Source of the DNA: Leifsonia sp. CL147
Lineage (GTDB): Bacteria > Actinomycetota > Actinomycetes > Actinomycetales > Microbacteriaceae
Length of the DNA: 59,326 bases
Direction: 5' to 3'
Assembly (NCBI RefSeq): GCF_900114565.1
Contig: NZ_FOTM01000024.1
Span: 1-59,326, forward strand
How positions within the stretch are numbered: position 1 is the first letter of the stretch; each line of letters starts with the position of its first letter. Below the pieces are notes generated by a model that was not told where the DNA came from, ran no database searches, and saw nothing but the letters and a program-made list of their open reading frames with translations. This document shows positions 19,685-25,176 of this stretch, piece after piece. The translations under genes were made by a program, and so were the position numbers.

Positions 19685-21772
19685 TCATCGCGTGCTCGCC
19701 GTCACGAAGCCACCGGGCGGGACGATGACGATGGAGTGGCCGCCGCGGGTCTGGGGCTGGCCGAACTGACGGCCGGTCGAGTCGTAGCTCGTCACCGTGA
19801 CCGGACCCGTCGCGTCGAGCCGCTGGGAGACCGGCAGGTCCGTGGAGTTCACGTAGACGTCGAGCGCGCTGCTCCCGGCAAGGCCCAGGTGGGAGACGAT
19901 CGGCTGCAGGAGCACCGCATCCAGTCGTGCCGTACCGGAGACCCGGGCCGTGACCGCGGTGGCCTGCGCCGGGACGGCGACGGGGAGCGTCTGCGGAAGC
20001 AGGAACACCGGGCTGGGGGCGATGCCCTGTTCGGCCGGCCGGACGTTGTCCGTACCGCCGAGCGGCAGGGCCACCCGTCCTACGGTGGCGGTCCAGGAGG
20101 TGGTGCCTGCGTCGGTCGGGTCCTCCGGCCCGAGATCGGCGATGGGCAGGACGCGCAGGGCAGGATGGCCGGCGGGGAGCTGCAGCGTCACGGACGAGCC
20201 GTCGCCCGCCTGCAGGTAGGCGCCGCCCGACCAGTTGGCCGATCCGGTCCACGCCGAGGGAGGCGTGACCGTCGTGACCGGACCGGTCGTTGTTCCGCTC
20301 TCGGCTTCGACCACGCTGAGCCCGGAGGCCGCGGTCGTGCGGGTGAAGGAGGTCGCTGCGCGCGCGATGGCGGGATGCGCATCCAGCGCGAGCATGCTCA
20401 GCTCGGTGTGGATGACGGACTCGGCGCCGCAATTGCGGTTGACCGTTCCGTCGCCCGCGATGCCGTCGACGCAGACCCCGGTCGCCGGGTCGTAGGCCGG
20501 CACACCGGCCCGGTTCGCACCGAAATACCAGGCGGCCTGGGCGCCGGCGAGGGCAGCGAGCCCCGTGGCGCCGGTCGCATCGGCTGCGGCCACAAGCCCC
20601 TCGAGCCGCGAGTCGACGCCGTAGGCGATCTGGGTGCGATCGGCCGGTGTCGGAGTCCACCCGTTGTCGGGCCCTCCGGTCGCCAGCAGCTGTGCCGTGA
20701 ACTGAGCGAGATCGGTCGTCGCCGCGCGCTGCACGGAGGCATCGCCGAGCACTCCGGAGGCGGCGGTCAGGGCTGCGGGCTCCATCCCGGCCCAGGCGTG
20801 CCAGAACGTCGGCGAGTTCGCCTCAGGAAGGAGCGCGCCGAACGGCCACTGGCCGACTCCGCCGCTCTGCAGCTCCGCGATCCCGGCGGCGTAGTGGGCG
20901 AGCGCGGTCCGTGCCTCGGTGTCGCCGGGTTCGACGGCGGCGTAGGCGCTCAGCCCGAGGACGGCCTCGGCGGTGGCCCCTGCGCTTCCGACGATCAGCC
21001 AGCCGGGAACCGTCACGCCGTTCGCCACCTCGGTTTTCGGATACTGCCCGAGCGACTGGCGCTCGAGAGCCGAGAGCGCCAGGTGCAGCCGGTCGCGGAG
21101 GAACGTCGCGAACCCGGGGTCGGCCGAACGGAAGCCGGCGTATCCCTCGCCCAGCGCCCACACCGTGCGGGCGAGCCAGAACGACTCCGCGGAGTCGGAC
21201 GGGTCGGGCAGCTCCTTCGGGATGGCCGACGGGTTCAGCGTCCCGTCGTGCTGCTGCCAGAGCACGACGTTGCCGGCATTCGGGCCGTCGGAGGTCTGCA
21301 GGTAGGTGAGCGACCGGAGCAGCTGGTAGGCCGTCGTCCGGCTCGATGCAGTGCCGTTCTGCTTCCAGTCGCGCAGGTAGACGACCGCCGCGCGCGAGAT
21401 GTCGTCGGCGTCGTAGGCGCCCTGCGCGTACCAGCCGCGCGCCGGGTCGGTGATCGGACCCCCGCCGACCCGGCGGAAGGTGCCGTCGCTCTGCCGATCG
21501 GCGTAGACCCAGGGCGCGCGGGCGACCGGCTCCTCCGCGGCCCGGTACGTGGTGTGGCCGGCGACGCCGGGGAGTAGGGGCACCTCGTCGAGCAGGAAGT
21601 CCAGGTGGGCGAGGTTGGTCAGCTTCGAGGTGGAGGCGGCGGCGCGCTCACCTGCACTCGCCGCAGCGACTGCAGTCGCGTGCGCGGGGAGGACCGCCGC
21701 CGTCAGGGCGAGAGAGGCGCCCAGGGCAAGGGCGGCCGCGGCCCTCGGCATCGTCTGTACTCGGTTGCGCAT
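19685..21772 (-). CDS. Secreted protein with (alpha/alpha)-toroid-like glycan-active domain
   Basis: A 695-residue exported protein. It has a signal peptide of about 30 residues (ending near AHATAVAA), then a helical-repeat region to about residue 450 with WLARTVWALGEGYAGF, FWHAWAGMEPAAL and WYFGANRAGVPAYDPATG, which resembles six-hairpin glycosidases and lyases. The last 240 residues are beta-rich and could be carbohydrate-binding. I cannot assign a GH family. Being upstream of the LacI gene and importer on the same strand, it probably releases the oligosaccharides they handle. An acid/base pair is not obvious to me. Confidence 0.65.
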   Translation of the reverse strand: MRNRVQTMPRAAAALALGASLALTAAVLPAHATAVAAASAGERAAASTSKLTNLAHLDFLLDEVPLLPGVAGHTTYRAAEEPVARAPWVYADRQSDGTFRRVGGGPITDPARGWYAQGAYDADDISRAAVVYLRDWKQNGTASSRTTAYQLLRSLTYLQTSDGPNAGNVVLWQQHDGTLNPSAIPKELPDPSDSAESFWLARTVWALGEGYAGFRSADPGFATFLRDRLHLALSALERQSLGQYPKTEVANGVTVPGWLIVGSAGATAEAVLGLSAYAAVEPGDTEARTALAHYAAGIAELQSGGVGQWPFGALLPEANSPTFWHAWAGMEPAALTAASGVLGDASVQRAATTDLAQFTAQLLATGGPDNGWTPTPADRTQIAYGVDSRLEGLVAAADATGATGLAALAGAQAAWYFGANRAGVPAYDPATGVCVDGIAGDGTVNRNCGAESVIHTELSMLALDAHPAIARAATSFTRTTAASGLSVVEAESGTTTGPVTTVTPPSAWTGSANWSGGAYLQAGDGSSVTLQLPAGHPALRVLPIADLGPEDPTDAGTTSWTATVGRVALPLGGTDNVRPAEQGIAPSPVFLLPQTLPVAVPAQATAVTARVSGTARLDAVLLQPIVSHLGLAGSSALDVYVNSTDLPVSQRLDATGPVTVTSYDSTGRQFGQPQTRGGHSIVIVPPGGFVTASTR

Positions 21773-21857
21773 CGTTGCGACCCCTCATGCTCGTCGTTCT
21801 CGGTGCCGGCTCGCGGGCTGCCTCGAGGCTTTTCACGCTCAGCCACGAGCTGTCATC

Positions 21858-21869
21858 TAAACCGGTTTA
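21858..21869. promoter_or_regulatory. LacI-type operator palindrome
   Basis: TAAACCGGTTTA is a perfect 12-bp palindrome with the central CG step typical of LacI-family operators, 86 bp upstream of the minus-strand gene starting at 21772. It would control the whole cluster that runs from 21772 to 13235 if this is one transcript. Confidence 0.75.
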
Positions 21870-22025
21870 AAGGACGGTAGGCCTCGATCCCGGAAATGTC
21901 AACGCGAGGGCACGCCCGTCACGTTCGTGCTACTGCCGCGTCTACAGGTACTGACGGGCCTGTGCACCTTCTGGTCACGGATGGTCGTTGTGGTCTCGGT
22001 GTTCGACGTCGACGAAAGAATGCGA

Positions 22026-22415
22026 ATGCGTGTAGCTCGTCTCATAGCGGTCCTGGCTCTGAGCGCCATGTTGGTCGTGACTTCGGCCGCATGCTCATTG
22101 ATTGGAGATCGCCTGGCGCCCCCGGACCCGCCGAATCGGGAACCACAACGAGAGTCGGCGCTGGCATTCCGGGAGTGGCAGCCGGACGTCGAGAAGGTAC
22201 TTTTCACCCGCGGGGGCGATCGGCCGGGGCTCGGTGCGTCCTGGCGTGTCAATGCGGTCGCCACGGTGAGCGGTGTGGAGTACCAGGTGATCATCGGCCC
22301 AGACATCGGGCCGGCTTTCGTCGGCATCGGCGTGCCACCTGAAGCGCCCACCACGACTCCATCTGGCCCGTTGACGGTGACCTATAGCGATGGAACGCGG
22401 GAGGTCATCGGATGA
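22026..22415 (+). CDS. Lipoprotein, immunity candidate, copy 1
   Basis: A 129-residue lipoprotein with signal peptide and lipobox TSAAC, then a small domain with the segment GASWRVNAVATVSGVEYQVI, which could fold as a cystatin-like sheet. It is a paralogue of the lipoprotein at 22651-23046. The ATG at 22026 is the one that aligns with the paralogue's start; an ATG two codons earlier is also possible. A 4-bp overlap joins it to a lipase fragment. By analogy with TilA lipoproteins that protect against the type VII lipase toxin TslA in Staphylococcus aureus, it may neutralise a lipase toxin. That analogy rests on gene order and localisation, not on sequence identity. Confidence 0.65.
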   Translation: MRVARLIAVLALSAMLVVTSAACSLIGDRLAPPDPPNREPQRESALAFREWQPDVEKVLFTRGGDRPGLGASWRVNAVATVSGVEYQVIIGPDIGPAFVGIGVPPEAPTTTPSGPLTVTYSDGTREVIG

Positions 22416-22495
22416 CGGCGTCTCAGGAGTACGTGCATATTGCCAACGAGGCGTACAAAGTTGACCGGTTGAGGCAGGACCTGCGCCTGGGCGCG
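22412..22495 (+). pseudogene. Lipase gene remnant, copy 1 (first ~27 codons)
   Basis: The frame opens MTASQEYVHIANEAYKVDRL, matching MTTAEEYVDIANEAYLVDPL of the second copy, and overlaps the lipoprotein stop by 4 bp in the same way. After about 27 codons the match ends and the frame runs into the upstream region of the second unit. The Ser nucleophile region is missing, so no enzyme can be made. Confidence 0.75.
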
Positions 22496-22650
22496 GGACG
22501 GCCGGGCCACGATCACGCGAATGTCAACAAGCGAGCATGTCCGTCACGTTCGCGCCGATGCCGCGTCCTCGTGTTAGTGAGAGGTCCGTGCGGCTTCCGG
22601 CCACGGATGGTCGTCGTGTCGCGGTGTTCGACATCGAACGAAGGAAGCGA

Positions 22651-23046
22651 ATGCGAATTGCTCGTCTCGTACAAGTCTTGGCGCTGAGCGCCCTGTTGGT
22701 CGTGAGTTCGACGGCCTGCTCGTTGATTGGAGATCGCCTCATGAGTCCGGACCCTTCAAACAAGGAACTGCAGAGAGAAACGGCGGTGGTGTATCGCAAT
22801 GAGTGGCAGCCGGTTGTCGAGAAGATCCGCTTCACACAAGAGGGCGATAGGCCCGGGTTTGGCGCATCTTGGAGCGTCAATGCTGTCGCAACCGTTCTTG
22901 GTGTGGAGTACCAGGTGATAATCGGCCCGGACATCGGTCCAGCATACGTGGGAGGGAGCGATGTCCCGCCGGAGTCGCCCCCCACGACTCCATCTGGCCC
23001 GTTGACGGTGATCTATAGCGACGGGACCACGGAGGTCATCGAATGA
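22651..23046 (+). CDS. Lipoprotein, immunity candidate, copy 2
   Basis: A 131-residue lipoprotein with lipobox SSTAC and a mature domain containing FTQEGDRPGFGASWSVNAVA and VEYQVIIGPDIGPAYVG. The ATG at 22651 has GAAGGAAG upstream. It is a paralogue of copy 1 and overlaps the following lipase gene by 4 bp, which suggests the two proteins are made together. A lipid-anchored protein on the outer face of the membrane is the expected place for immunity against a lipase that attacks membrane lipids. Function is inferred. Confidence 0.68.
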   Translation: MRIARLVQVLALSALLVVSSTACSLIGDRLMSPDPSNKELQRETAVVYRNEWQPVVEKIRFTQEGDRPGFGASWSVNAVATVLGVEYQVIIGPDIGPAYVGGSDVPPESPPTTPSGPLTVIYSDGTTEVIE

Positions 23047-23630
23047 CGACGGCCGAGGAGTACGTGGATATTGCTAATGAGGCCTACTTGGTGGACCCGC
23101 TTCGGCGAGATCCTCCGCTAGCGAAAGGGGAGAATTTCTACGCTGGTAGTGGCGCGAACAAGCAGCGGTATGAAGTGATCGATACCGAGGACAATCCGGT
23201 GAACGGGTTCCAGGCGATGGCAGTCGTCCCGGTTGTGAATGGCGTCCCGGACATGTCGCAGATCATTGTGACGTATGCGGGCACGAACCCGGACCATCGC
23301 GCCGACGTTCTCGCCGACGTCGAGTCGGTCGTGGGCAATCAGCAGGTGATCGGATCACAGATCGACGACGCCGAGCGGTTCGCGGACAGAGTCAGGCGGG
23401 CGAACCCGGGCGCATCGATCACGACGTCAGGGCATTCGCTGGGCGCATTCCTGGCCATGCTGATTGCGGCGGAGCACCGGTGGCACTCGACGACGTTCAA
23501 CGGCCCCGATCCGTGGGAGAGGCTCTCGCCGGAGGCGAAAGCCTGGTTGCAGAGCGAGCTCGCAGCCGGCCACAAGCCCCTGCACAACTACGTCAACGAA
23601 TGGGATCGTGACCTACAGATCTCTCGGTGA
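23043..23630 (+). CDS. Lipase-like alpha/beta hydrolase, C-terminally truncated
   Basis: A 195-residue class-3-lipase-like domain without a signal peptide. It has the oxyanion strand IIVTYAGTNP (74-83), the nucleophile elbow TSGHSLGAF with Ser132, and a candidate catalytic Asp188 in VNEWDRD. The frame ends seven residues later, before any His that could complete the triad, so the enzyme is probably dead. Directly after, a different frame codes for a coiled coil (23608-23943). In the TslA toxins of type VII systems a lipase domain comes first and a helical targeting domain second. A deletion plus frameshift in such a gene would give exactly this arrangement. Confidence 0.65.
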   Translation: MTTAEEYVDIANEAYLVDPLRRDPPLAKGENFYAGSGANKQRYEVIDTEDNPVNGFQAMAVVPVVNGVPDMSQIIVTYAGTNPDHRADVLADVESVVGNQQVIGSQIDDAERFADRVRRANPGASITTSGHSLGAFLAMLIAAEHRWHSTTFNGPDPWERLSPEAKAWLQSELAAGHKPLHNYVNEWDRDLQISR

Positions 23631-23943
23631 GCTCGAGGACGCCCAGGACCAGATTCGAGCGACCGCGCAGCGGCGCATCGAACTCGCGGATGAATACGTC
23701 GCGCACTACCGCTCGCGGATCCACCTGGTTCAGGAGAGCTTCTATGAACTCAGCGCCCGCCAGGGCATCGCGGACGACCCGGGCTTCCGCGCGGAACTCC
23801 AGCGCATCTCCGATCTGACCGACCAAACCGTGCGCTCCGCCGGGCACAGGATCGCCGAGCTCGAAGAGGACTACGAGGCCATGATGCGGCAGCACGCACT
23901 GGAGCGGGACAGCTTCATCGAGGAGCAACGACGAGAGGAGTGA
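23608..23943 (+). CDS. Coiled-coil protein, possibly detached C-terminus of the lipase
   Basis: A 111-residue, highly charged helical protein (ELEDAQDQIRATAQRRIELA to ALERDSFIEEQRREE). The start is uncertain: GTG at 23608 is in frame but lacks a ribosome site and overlaps the lipase end by 23 bp. Two readings fit: a separate small helical partner like the Lap/Tla proteins of type VII toxins, or the helical C-terminal part of the lipase toxin put out of frame by a deletion. No signal peptide or enzyme motif is seen. Confidence 0.5.
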   Translation: MTYRSLGELEDAQDQIRATAQRRIELADEYVAHYRSRIHLVQESFYELSARQGIADDPGFRAELQRISDLTDQTVRSAGHRIAELEEDYEAMMRQHALERDSFIEEQRREE

Positions 23944-24054
23944 ACCGTGGCTCCCGGAATGTCGGCCAGAGACTTGTGAACCCGCCTGCCGGACGACGAG
24001 ACTGGCCGCACCGCAACCGACCACGCCCATCGCCGGGGCTGAAGGAGGACCACT

Positions 24055-25176
24055 GTGGAATACAAGGACATTCCCACCAAGGCCGACGTCGAACGGATCG
24101 CCGCGTTGCGCCATCCCGGTTGCGTGAGCATCTACCTGCCCACCGGAACGACGCCCGCGGAGGCGGACCGGGCGCGGATCGAGCTGAAGAATCATCTGAC
24201 CGCAGCCGAGCGCGCGCTGGAGAAGCTGGGTGTGCCGCGCTCGCGCATCCAGGGCGTGCAGACCGAGGGGCAGCGCATCCTCGACGACCGCGACTTCTGG
24301 CGCTACCAGTCCCGGTCGCTCGCCGTGTTCCTCGACGGCGACCTGGCCGAGACCTTCCGTCTTCCGAACCGGCTCGGCACCGCCTGCGAGGTCGCCGATC
24401 GCTTCTACGTCAAGCCGCTGCTGCGGACGCTGACCTTCCCCCAGTCCGCCCTCATCCTGGCCCTCGCCGGCAACTCGGTGCGCCTGCTGCACCTCACTCC
24501 GGACCGGCCGCCGGAGCGTATGGACGTGCCCGGGATGCCGCGCGATGTCGCCGACGCCATAGGCAAGACCTCGGTCAGCGGACGGCAGGCCGAGGGGCGC
24601 ATCCAGGGATCGGAGGGCCAGAAGGTCCGGATGCTGGAGTACGTGCAGGCGATCGAGCGCGCGCTGCATCCCGTGCTCGCGAATTCGTCGGAGCCGCTGA
24701 TCCTCGCCGCCGCCGAACCGCTCTCCGGCATCTTCCGGGGAGCGAGCGACCACCCCCGGCTGGTCGCGGAAGTCATCGCGGGCAACCCGGAGGAGAAGAC
24801 CGACGAGGAGCTCGCAGCGGCCGCCCGCGGAGTGCTCGACCGGCTGTACGCCGGCAAGGTGGCGGCCCTCCGGGACGGGTACGAGTCACGGATCGCCGCG
24901 GGCACCGCCCTCGTCGACCTCAGCGATATCGCCCGGGCGGCGACGTTCGGCGCCGTCGAGTCGCTCGTCATCGACATCGACCGCCGGGTGCCGGGCACCA
25001 TCGACGACGAGACGGGGGCGGTCGAGTTCGCGGACGACGACGGCACCGGTGACTACGGAGTGGTGGACGAGATCCTGCGACGGGCACTGGCCTCGAAGGC
25101 GAAGGTGTATGCGCTGCGGGCCGAGGACATACCGGGCGGGGGAGCGGCCGCGGCAGCCGTGCGTTACCCGGTCTGA
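24055..25176 (+). CDS. baeRF-family (archaeo-eukaryotic release-factor-like) protein
   Basis: A 373-residue protein resembling bacterial members of the eRF1-like superfamily (baeRF). Segments include CVSIYLPTGTTPAEADRARIELKN near the start, SLAVFLDGDLAETFRLPNRL, FYVKPLLRTL and a C-terminal 'VDEILRRALASKAKVYALR'. Proteins of this group are proposed to act on ribosomes, for example in hibernation or rescue, but a role for this subgroup is not established. The GTG at 24055 has a strong AAGGAGG site. It stands alone on the plus strand. Confidence 0.7.
   Translation: MEYKDIPTKADVERIAALRHPGCVSIYLPTGTTPAEADRARIELKNHLTAAERALEKLGVPRSRIQGVQTEGQRILDDRDFWRYQSRSLAVFLDGDLAETFRLPNRLGTACEVADRFYVKPLLRTLTFPQSALILALAGNSVRLLHLTPDRPPERMDVPGMPRDVADAIGKTSVSGRQAEGRIQGSEGQKVRMLEYVQAIERALHPVLANSSEPLILAAAEPLSGIFRGASDHPRLVAEVIAGNPEEKTDEELAAAARGVLDRLYAGKVAALRDGYESRIAAGTALVDLSDIARAATFGAVESLVIDIDRRVPGTIDDETGAVEFADDDGTGDYGVVDEILRRALASKAKVYALRAEDIPGGGAAAAAVRYPV

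Follow-up and report, generated by a model that had tools for sequence, protein, structure and literature searches.

A Leifsonia locus with two lipoproteins and a truncated lipase is probably the remnant of a type VII reverse-domain toxin cassette

Why would an actinobacterium keep two similar lipoprotein genes, each running into the start of a lipase gene that has lost its end? The question is raised by a locus on contig C31 of the 3.78-Mb genome of a Leifsonia sp., a 59,326-nucleotide stretch that is called the window below. An earlier note, made from the letters of the window, had proposed a decaying, distant version of the toxin-immunity system known from Staphylococcus aureus, in which the order is tilA-tslA-tlaA1-tlaA2 (Tsl1). 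TslA is reported to be an antibacterial lipase inhibited by the lipoprotein TilA, and its efficient export by the type VIIb secretion system (T7SSb) needs both small partners (PMC10730906). From the anatomy of the locus, its unbroken homologues and the secretion genes that accompany them, we conclude that the window locus is very probably a decayed type VII reverse-domain phospholipase toxin, with the lipase domain first and the helical part last, whose immunity lipoproteins have been kept. The kind of system is known; a Tsl-like cassette together with a T7SSb in Actinomycetota appears new against the open-access literature searched.

All parts of the locus lie on the forward strand. Two units, 21,872–22,486 and 22,496–23,118, form a head-to-tail tandem repeat with 9 bases between them, and 472 of 613 aligned bases (77%) are identical, a likeness beyond chance. 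Unit 1 runs from a leader through lipoprotein gene 1 into the start of lipase 1, of which it takes in ~25 codons. Lipoprotein 1 (22,026–22,415) has its likely ATG at 22,026, with upstream starts possible, and its lipid-acceptor Cys codon at 22,092; lipoprotein 2 (22,651–23,046) has its likely ATG at 22,651 and the Cys codon at 22,717. Both were placed by family alignment and are presumed to be immunity proteins. As the earlier note had seen, the lipoprotein and lipase frames overlap by 4 bp in both units, the former ending at 22,415 and 23,046 and the latter starting at 22,412 and 23,043, and neither lipase has a signal peptide as judged by eye from the N-termini. The note had also described lipase 1 as cut early; a stub it is (22,412–22,486), and what ends after ~25 codons is the homology to the family, while the frame itself stays open without homology to 22,687. 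Lipase 2 (23,043–23,630) tracks the family to codon 188 (GAT, 23,604–23,606), continues with 7 unrelated residues and stops at 23,630. It keeps Ser132 in GHSLG and Asp188, and the break precedes the conserved family His (His214 in the unbroken paralogue), again as had been claimed, so that the helical C-terminal part is missing too; since it lacks the His, we class it as a relic and not as a working member of Tsl1. At 23,604–23,610 lipase homology ends and homology to a small helical gene begins, which marks the junction of a deletion that took out a first small gene and the 3' half of the lipase gene. The second small gene (23,608–23,943; TlaA2-like by position) is open from a GTG at 23,608, the ATG start of its homologues being absent, and is 49% identical to its same-genome paralogue P0003. 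A scan of 21,700–24,100 for promoters and terminators found none.

This last gene was different from the earlier description, in which the coiled coil was a C-terminal tail of the toxin displaced into another frame. The window coiled coil aligns from its very start with a 113-residue protein (49% identical) of a paralogous cassette on contig C24, and a homologue stands 3' of the lipase in 24 of 27 full-length Leifsonia loci. Judged by these alignments, the coiled coil is a separate partner gene, TlaA-like by position, and not the C-terminus of the toxin itself. It follows from this homology that the deletion spared nearly all of small gene 2 while removing the second lipase half and small gene 1. 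Two lipase paralogues of the same genome are unbroken and are followed by both small genes: the C24 copy reads lipoprotein (cut by the contig end), 406-residue lipase, 111-residue protein and 113-residue protein, and the copy on C20 has all four cassette genes. A fourth lipase copy at the end of C22 (L008:6874-7366) is broken after ~50 residues, where a sequence resembling the IS3 type of insertion sequence, recognized by eye, interrupts it and runs to the contig end; the ends of C22 and C24 do not overlap. The guanine plus cytosine (G+C) content of the locus (21,880–23,943) is 62.6% against 68.9% for the window, which is low and not extreme, because 74 of 1146 sliding stretches of equal length have this value or a smaller one; for the C24 and C20 cassettes it is 63% and 62%, in surroundings of 71%.

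The 406-residue lipase matched in five of 299 genomes of the family sample, its own included and all from one genus, and in a class sample of 394 genomes it found its own genome and five others with weak matches restricted to the lipase domain, which we take as ordinary lipases. Within Leifsonia the lipase was found in 13 of 28 genomes. Counts below are based on 27 full-length lipases from 13 species-level genomes; L013, whose lipase is split over two frames, is not counted. Directly 5' of the lipase stands a lipoprotein gene in 27/27 loci, with more than one lipoprotein within 1.5 kb in 14, small gene 1 is present in 25 and small gene 2 in 24, so that the complete order, lipoprotein(s), ~410-residue lipase with helical C-terminus and two small genes, is seen in 24/27. 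The search for intact lipase genes in related genomes suggested by the earlier note thus speaks for its reading, and the one relative that was modelled has a helical C-terminus.

In the unbroken relatives a GXSXG lipase domain with a Ser-Asp-His triad forms the N-terminus. Ser132, Asp188 and His216 are invariant in 19/19 aligned rows from both Actinomycetota and Bacillota (alignment A5; 20 rows prepared, 19 used, L064 left out), and the triad spacing resembles that of TslA, which has Ser164/Asp224/His251 (PMC10730906). The structure model of the Leifsonia lipase L052 (mean predicted local distance difference test score, pLDDT, 75.4; low stretches 84–103 and 260–303) exhibits an alpha/beta hydrolase to residue ~240 and then long helices at 286–336 and 364–407. 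Four of its fold matches in the PDB have E <0.001: two are fungal lipases, one is a feruloyl esterase, and the fourth (E 3.5e-5) is a lipase effector of the type VI secretion system (T6SS) bound to its immunity protein; a sequence search of the PDB with the lipase profile found nothing. Among family models, SA1320_fam of NCBIfam matches the lipases at 55.8–71.5 bits, all below its cut-off of 230, with window lipase 2 at 55.8 bits (E 2.8e-15). For DUF2974 (PF11187), one of the families to which the earlier note had pointed, there was no match in the two Leifsonia lipases scanned and a weak one (E 0.14) in Enterococcus rivorum.

The same genome encodes a secretion machine of the matching kind. 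On contig C36 (L100, 68,500–82,792), a single locus carries EssC (TIGR03928, 1435.7 bits; cut-off 778.4), EssB (272.9; 229.75), EsaA (123; 122), EsaB/YukD (42.5; 27) and WXG100 (70.9; 44.85), all five over their cut-offs, by which we recognize a T7SSb, and also DUF4176 (46.8; 25), which lies downstream of essC. A gene in the right place for EssA matches TIGR03927 weakly (15.9 bits; cut-off 32.45). The component set resembles that of the Bacillota systems (EsxA, EssA, EsaB/YukD, EsaA, EssB, EssC), with the differences that the host is an actinobacterium and that EssA is weakly matched. TIGR03928 over its cut-off detected EssC in 14 of the 28 Leifsonia genomes, namely in 13/13 with the cassette and 1/15 without (Fisher p 7.5e-7), and EssB and YukD adjoin EssC in 14/14 fetched loci. 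In G307 the cassette sits inside the T7SSb locus itself, which reads esxA, essA, yukD, [lipoprotein, lipase, small 1, small 2], esaA (other strand), essB and essC. On an rpoB tree (rpoB partial in G303 and G310; 8/25 branches open), the cassette label changes 9 times, at least 4 of them on well-supported branches, compared with a mean of 9.6 for shuffled labels; as there are about as many changes as with shuffled labels, the tie between cassette and T7SSb is not one clade counted many times. Outside Leifsonia, the 299-genome family sample contained EssC in one other genus, over the cut-off in G221 and in two pieces in G263, and neither genome has a lipase match. The EccC model TIGR03924 was tried as a T7SSb marker and rejected, because it matches 28/28 genomes and cannot tell T7SSb from other FtsK-type ATPases, as TIGR03928 with its cut-off can.

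Relatives of the lipase also occur in the phylum to which T7SSb is assigned. A single lipase used as query of genome contigs found no relative. When 20 of the 27 full-length sequences were aligned and the alignment was searched against 84,980 named species genomes, 50 loci came out: 34 in Bacillota (Listeria, Lactococcus, Streptococcus, Enterococcus and further genera), 10 in Leifsonia, and 6 elsewhere that match weakly and in the lipase only. E values for Listeria, Enterococcus and Lactococcus, counted against the candidate stretches only, range from 1e-37 to 4e-31, and for Listeria, Lactococcus, Enterococcus and Sporosarcina the alignment with the Leifsonia lipases spans the whole ~410 residues. 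In the lipase tree, 27 Leifsonia and 9 Bacillota lipases stand on opposite sides of one branch (100/100). EssC was searched for in 13 of the genomes that carry the Bacillota lipase loci and exceeds the cut-off in 13/13, in G712 only as pieces. A profile of the Leifsonia lipoproteins matches 5' of the lipase or of a lipase stub in 6/34 Bacillota loci, at E 3e-20 in two Lactococcus, where the same 4-bp overlap occurs, and at 1e-4 to 2e-3 in the other four; the overlap is also found in Listeria goaensis and E. rivorum. Two small genes do come after the lipase in L. goaensis and on a Lactococcus lactis plasmid. The cassettes of the two phyla (in Bacillota L060, L061, L063, L079 and that on the plasmid, p14B4) are thus alike in lipase homology and, in Lactococcus, in lipoprotein homology, and they differ in that the upstream protein of Listeria and Enterococcus seems by eye to have a membrane helix and not a lipobox, that the Bacillota small genes are dissimilar in sequence, and that the L. 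lactis cassette is plasmid-borne. On this plasmid (L149, 42,870–54,108), which is mobilizable, the order is WXG100, small gene, lipase and two small genes; it is a possible transfer route for the cassette. Together, the 27/27 upstream lipoproteins, the Bacillota homologues and the co-occurrence with T7SSb uphold the earlier idea of a distant TslA/TilA-like system in an actinobacterium.

How close is this to Tsl itself? The likeness is one of design. First, the gene order is shared, with an upstream lipoprotein, often in several copies, and two small genes downstream. Second, the proteins resemble TslA in having the GXSXG lipase first and a helical part, LXG-like in TslA, last, and the cassette in its link to T7SSb. 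Third, extra and broken copies occur within one genome, as in S. aureus, where TslB is frameshifted in commonly studied strains (PMC10730906). Unlike S. aureus Tsl, the host is an actinobacterium and the lipoprotein is not detectably DUF576, and the window copy in particular differs from TslA in lacking the His, the helical part and small gene 1.

Of the window cassette, only the two lipoproteins remain intact, with small gene 2 nearly so. Between the lipoproteins dN/dS (the ratio of non-synonymous to synonymous substitution rates) is 0.16 over 129 codons, which indicates that selection maintained both as functional proteins through most of the period after their divergence. A simple pattern recognizes a lipobox in 22 of the 27 lipase-adjacent Leifsonia lipoproteins, one of the remaining five being cut by a contig end; the window lipoboxes, STAC and SAAC, both fall outside that pattern. 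In the AlphaFold2 model of the mature part of lipoprotein 2 (mean pLDDT 82.1), there are one helix and five strands. Searches with the small genes in Pfam and NCBIfam gave no match over a cut-off, and NCBIfam returned for the window lipoproteins a chance-level match to another model only, with none over cut-off; the lipoprotein profile had one sequence match in the PDB (E 0.033), which has no passing stretch and is taken as chance.

Several results weigh against the interpretation of the locus as a decayed Tsl-like cassette. The likeness to TslA rests on design and on homology to Listeria and Enterococcus lipases and not on direct alignment, and that of the small genes to TlaA1 and TlaA2 on position and size. 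Profiles of Leifsonia small genes 1 and 2 found nothing in the 34 Bacillota loci, so that the case for homologous partners comes from their place, their size and the helices predicted in them, and 3/27 full-length lipases are without one or both partners (L027, L040 and L041). The helical part of the L052 model has low confidence in places (pLDDT blocks 36–83). As to secretion, G304 has a T7SSb EssC and no lipase, the EssC of G125 is split over two frames, and EsaA is next to EssC in 10/14 loci, two of the four without it running to a contig end. The window lipoproteins match 0 Pfam families at E<=1, hence neither DUF576 (TilA) nor DUF4467, and a PDB fold search, which bears on the cystatin-like fold suggested by the earlier note, gave 217 matches, the best with E 1.1 and none below 1; for these two reasons we do not file the lipoproteins as TilA. 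Finally, dN/dS spans the whole time since duplication and is no indicator of selection today.

With these points weighed, a decayed toxin cassette with retained lipoproteins still accounts best for the locus. By analogy with TslA, an unbroken lipase would bind its two small helical partners through its C-terminal helices, leave the cell through the T7SSb of the same genome and attack the phospholipids of neighbouring bacteria, and the lipoprotein from the upstream gene, located on the outer face of the producer's membrane, would inhibit the enzyme. In the window, a tandem duplication of the lipoprotein gene together with the 5' end of the lipase gene left the toxin stub, and a deletion stripped the second lipase copy of its active-site His and helices and the cassette of small gene 1. 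With the lipoproteins whole, the toxin broken and a dN/dS of this size, orphan immunity is the natural reading, and both open lipoproteins probably protect against relatives with working copies.

Toxin stubs beside immunity genes recur, and they bear on the alternative that survives best. N-terminal lipase pieces of 28–130 residues lie 5' of a longer lipase in 2/10 named Leifsonia loci (L053, L054), and pieces of the same kind are found in 7/34 Bacillota loci (L070, L074, L075, L076, L078, L079, L088); in E. rivorum a membrane protein with ~90 lipase codons occurs twice ahead of a full lipase, resembling the units of the window. That the stubs are 5' pieces fits a toxin with its catalytic domain first and its immunity gene upstream. 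PMC9484751 discusses a tspA fragment within its immunity cluster (tsaI arrays) and partial rhs copies as recombination material; there too toxin pieces lie among immunity genes, with the difference that the tspA fragment is a 3' piece. The truncated lipase and small gene 2 could be a working derivative, serving as inactive decoy, regulator or recombination donor, that is, a handle for swapping toxin halves. This would agree with the recurrence of stubs, with the still open frame of small gene 2 and with dN/dS values of the lipase fragment and small gene 2 that are not raised against relatives (0.17–0.23 with six and 0.21–0.45 with four). However, recent breakage would give the same dN/dS, the stubs differ in length, copy 2 is without the catalytic His and unequal recombination produces such pieces without any use, and we therefore consider a working derivative unlikely.

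Slightly less probable still is that the unbroken lipases are aimed at eukaryotes (plant, amoeba or nematode) or serve feeding rather than acting on bacterial rivals. Some cassette-bearing Leifsonia are plant-derived by strain name (Root227, Leaf336), and lipases of this fold are also known in eukaryote-directed or feeding roles. A lipoprotein gene upstream of every full-length lipase, often in several copies, looks instead like self-protection, and TslA, which among studied proteins comes nearest in design, acts against bacteria (PMC10730906). We regard it as very unlikely that the lipase is an ordinary one, served by a lipoprotein as its foldase or anchor and without a tie to type VII secretion. 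Pfam does offer only generic lipase models, below their cut-offs, for the window copy, and the C24 lipase is just over the cut-off for DUF6792 (27.6 against 25), but the missing signal peptide, the modelled helical C-terminus, the two small genes in most loci, the co-occurrence with T7SSb and the cassette inside the T7SSb locus of G307 all speak for that tie. The least likely explanation is an assembly artefact in which similar paralogous cassettes were merged at the junction; although other copies do lie at contig ends (C24, C22), the window and C24 copies are so diverged (51% identical in lipase protein, besides the 49% in small gene 2) that a mix-up of reads is not expected, and the contig runs through.

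A decayed cassette of this kind touches a boundary drawn in the literature. T7SSb has been assigned to Bacillota and T7SSa and T7SSd to Actinomycetota, and the same 2024 paper on T7SS variants describes it as unknown whether reverse-order proteins are among the substrates of the actinobacterial T7SSa (PMC11217815). TslA homologues are reported in Listeria and Enterococcus in the 2023 TslA paper, which calls for further reverse-domain substrates (PMC10730906), and the accessible text of PMC12558993 mentions TslA from Staphylococcus, Enterococcus and Listeria only. We found no report of a T7SSb or TslA-like lipase in Leifsonia or other Microbacteriaceae in the accessible parts of the open-access literature, where T7SS proteins are listed for Rathayibacter toxicus with the subtype unstated and Pontimonas is given as having no T7SS. 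With Leifsonia, T7SSb reaches past Bacillota, to which it has been assigned. This single actinobacterial genus provides, in 13 species-level genomes, a natural collection of 27 full-length lipases linked to a T7SSb that appears and disappears together with them across the tree; it could serve as a model outside Bacillota for essC loss, for the need for two small partners and for the range of paired lipoproteins. The stub arrays suggest, furthermore, how immunity repertoires grow.

A broader proposal, for and against which we see about equal weight, is that Leifsonia runs a T7SSb exchanged with Bacillota as a working antibacterial machine, with reverse-domain lipases among its toxins. Repeated tandem growth and exchange at the 5' end of the toxin gene, visible in both phyla as arrays in which an immunity gene is joined by a toxin stub, would then be a mechanism by which reverse-order toxins in general acquire immunity genes and trade their catalytic halves, and the window would be such an array after loss of the toxin. 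In the EssC tree, from which rows with matches of <=900 residues were dropped, the Leifsonia genes fall into two groups with Lactococcus, the closest relatives sampled, between them; this tree carries a long-branch warning, which bears on the direction and number of transfers.

A second EssC-like ATPase of the window's genome, below the T7SSb cut-off, is encoded on contig C28 (L101, C28:382,500–402,000), with a WXG100 gene at C28:395,011 and an open reading frame that by eye is kinase-like (L101:15673-17304). This locus is possibly of the T7SSd kind, and ATPases scoring at ~500 bits are common in the 299-genome family sample.

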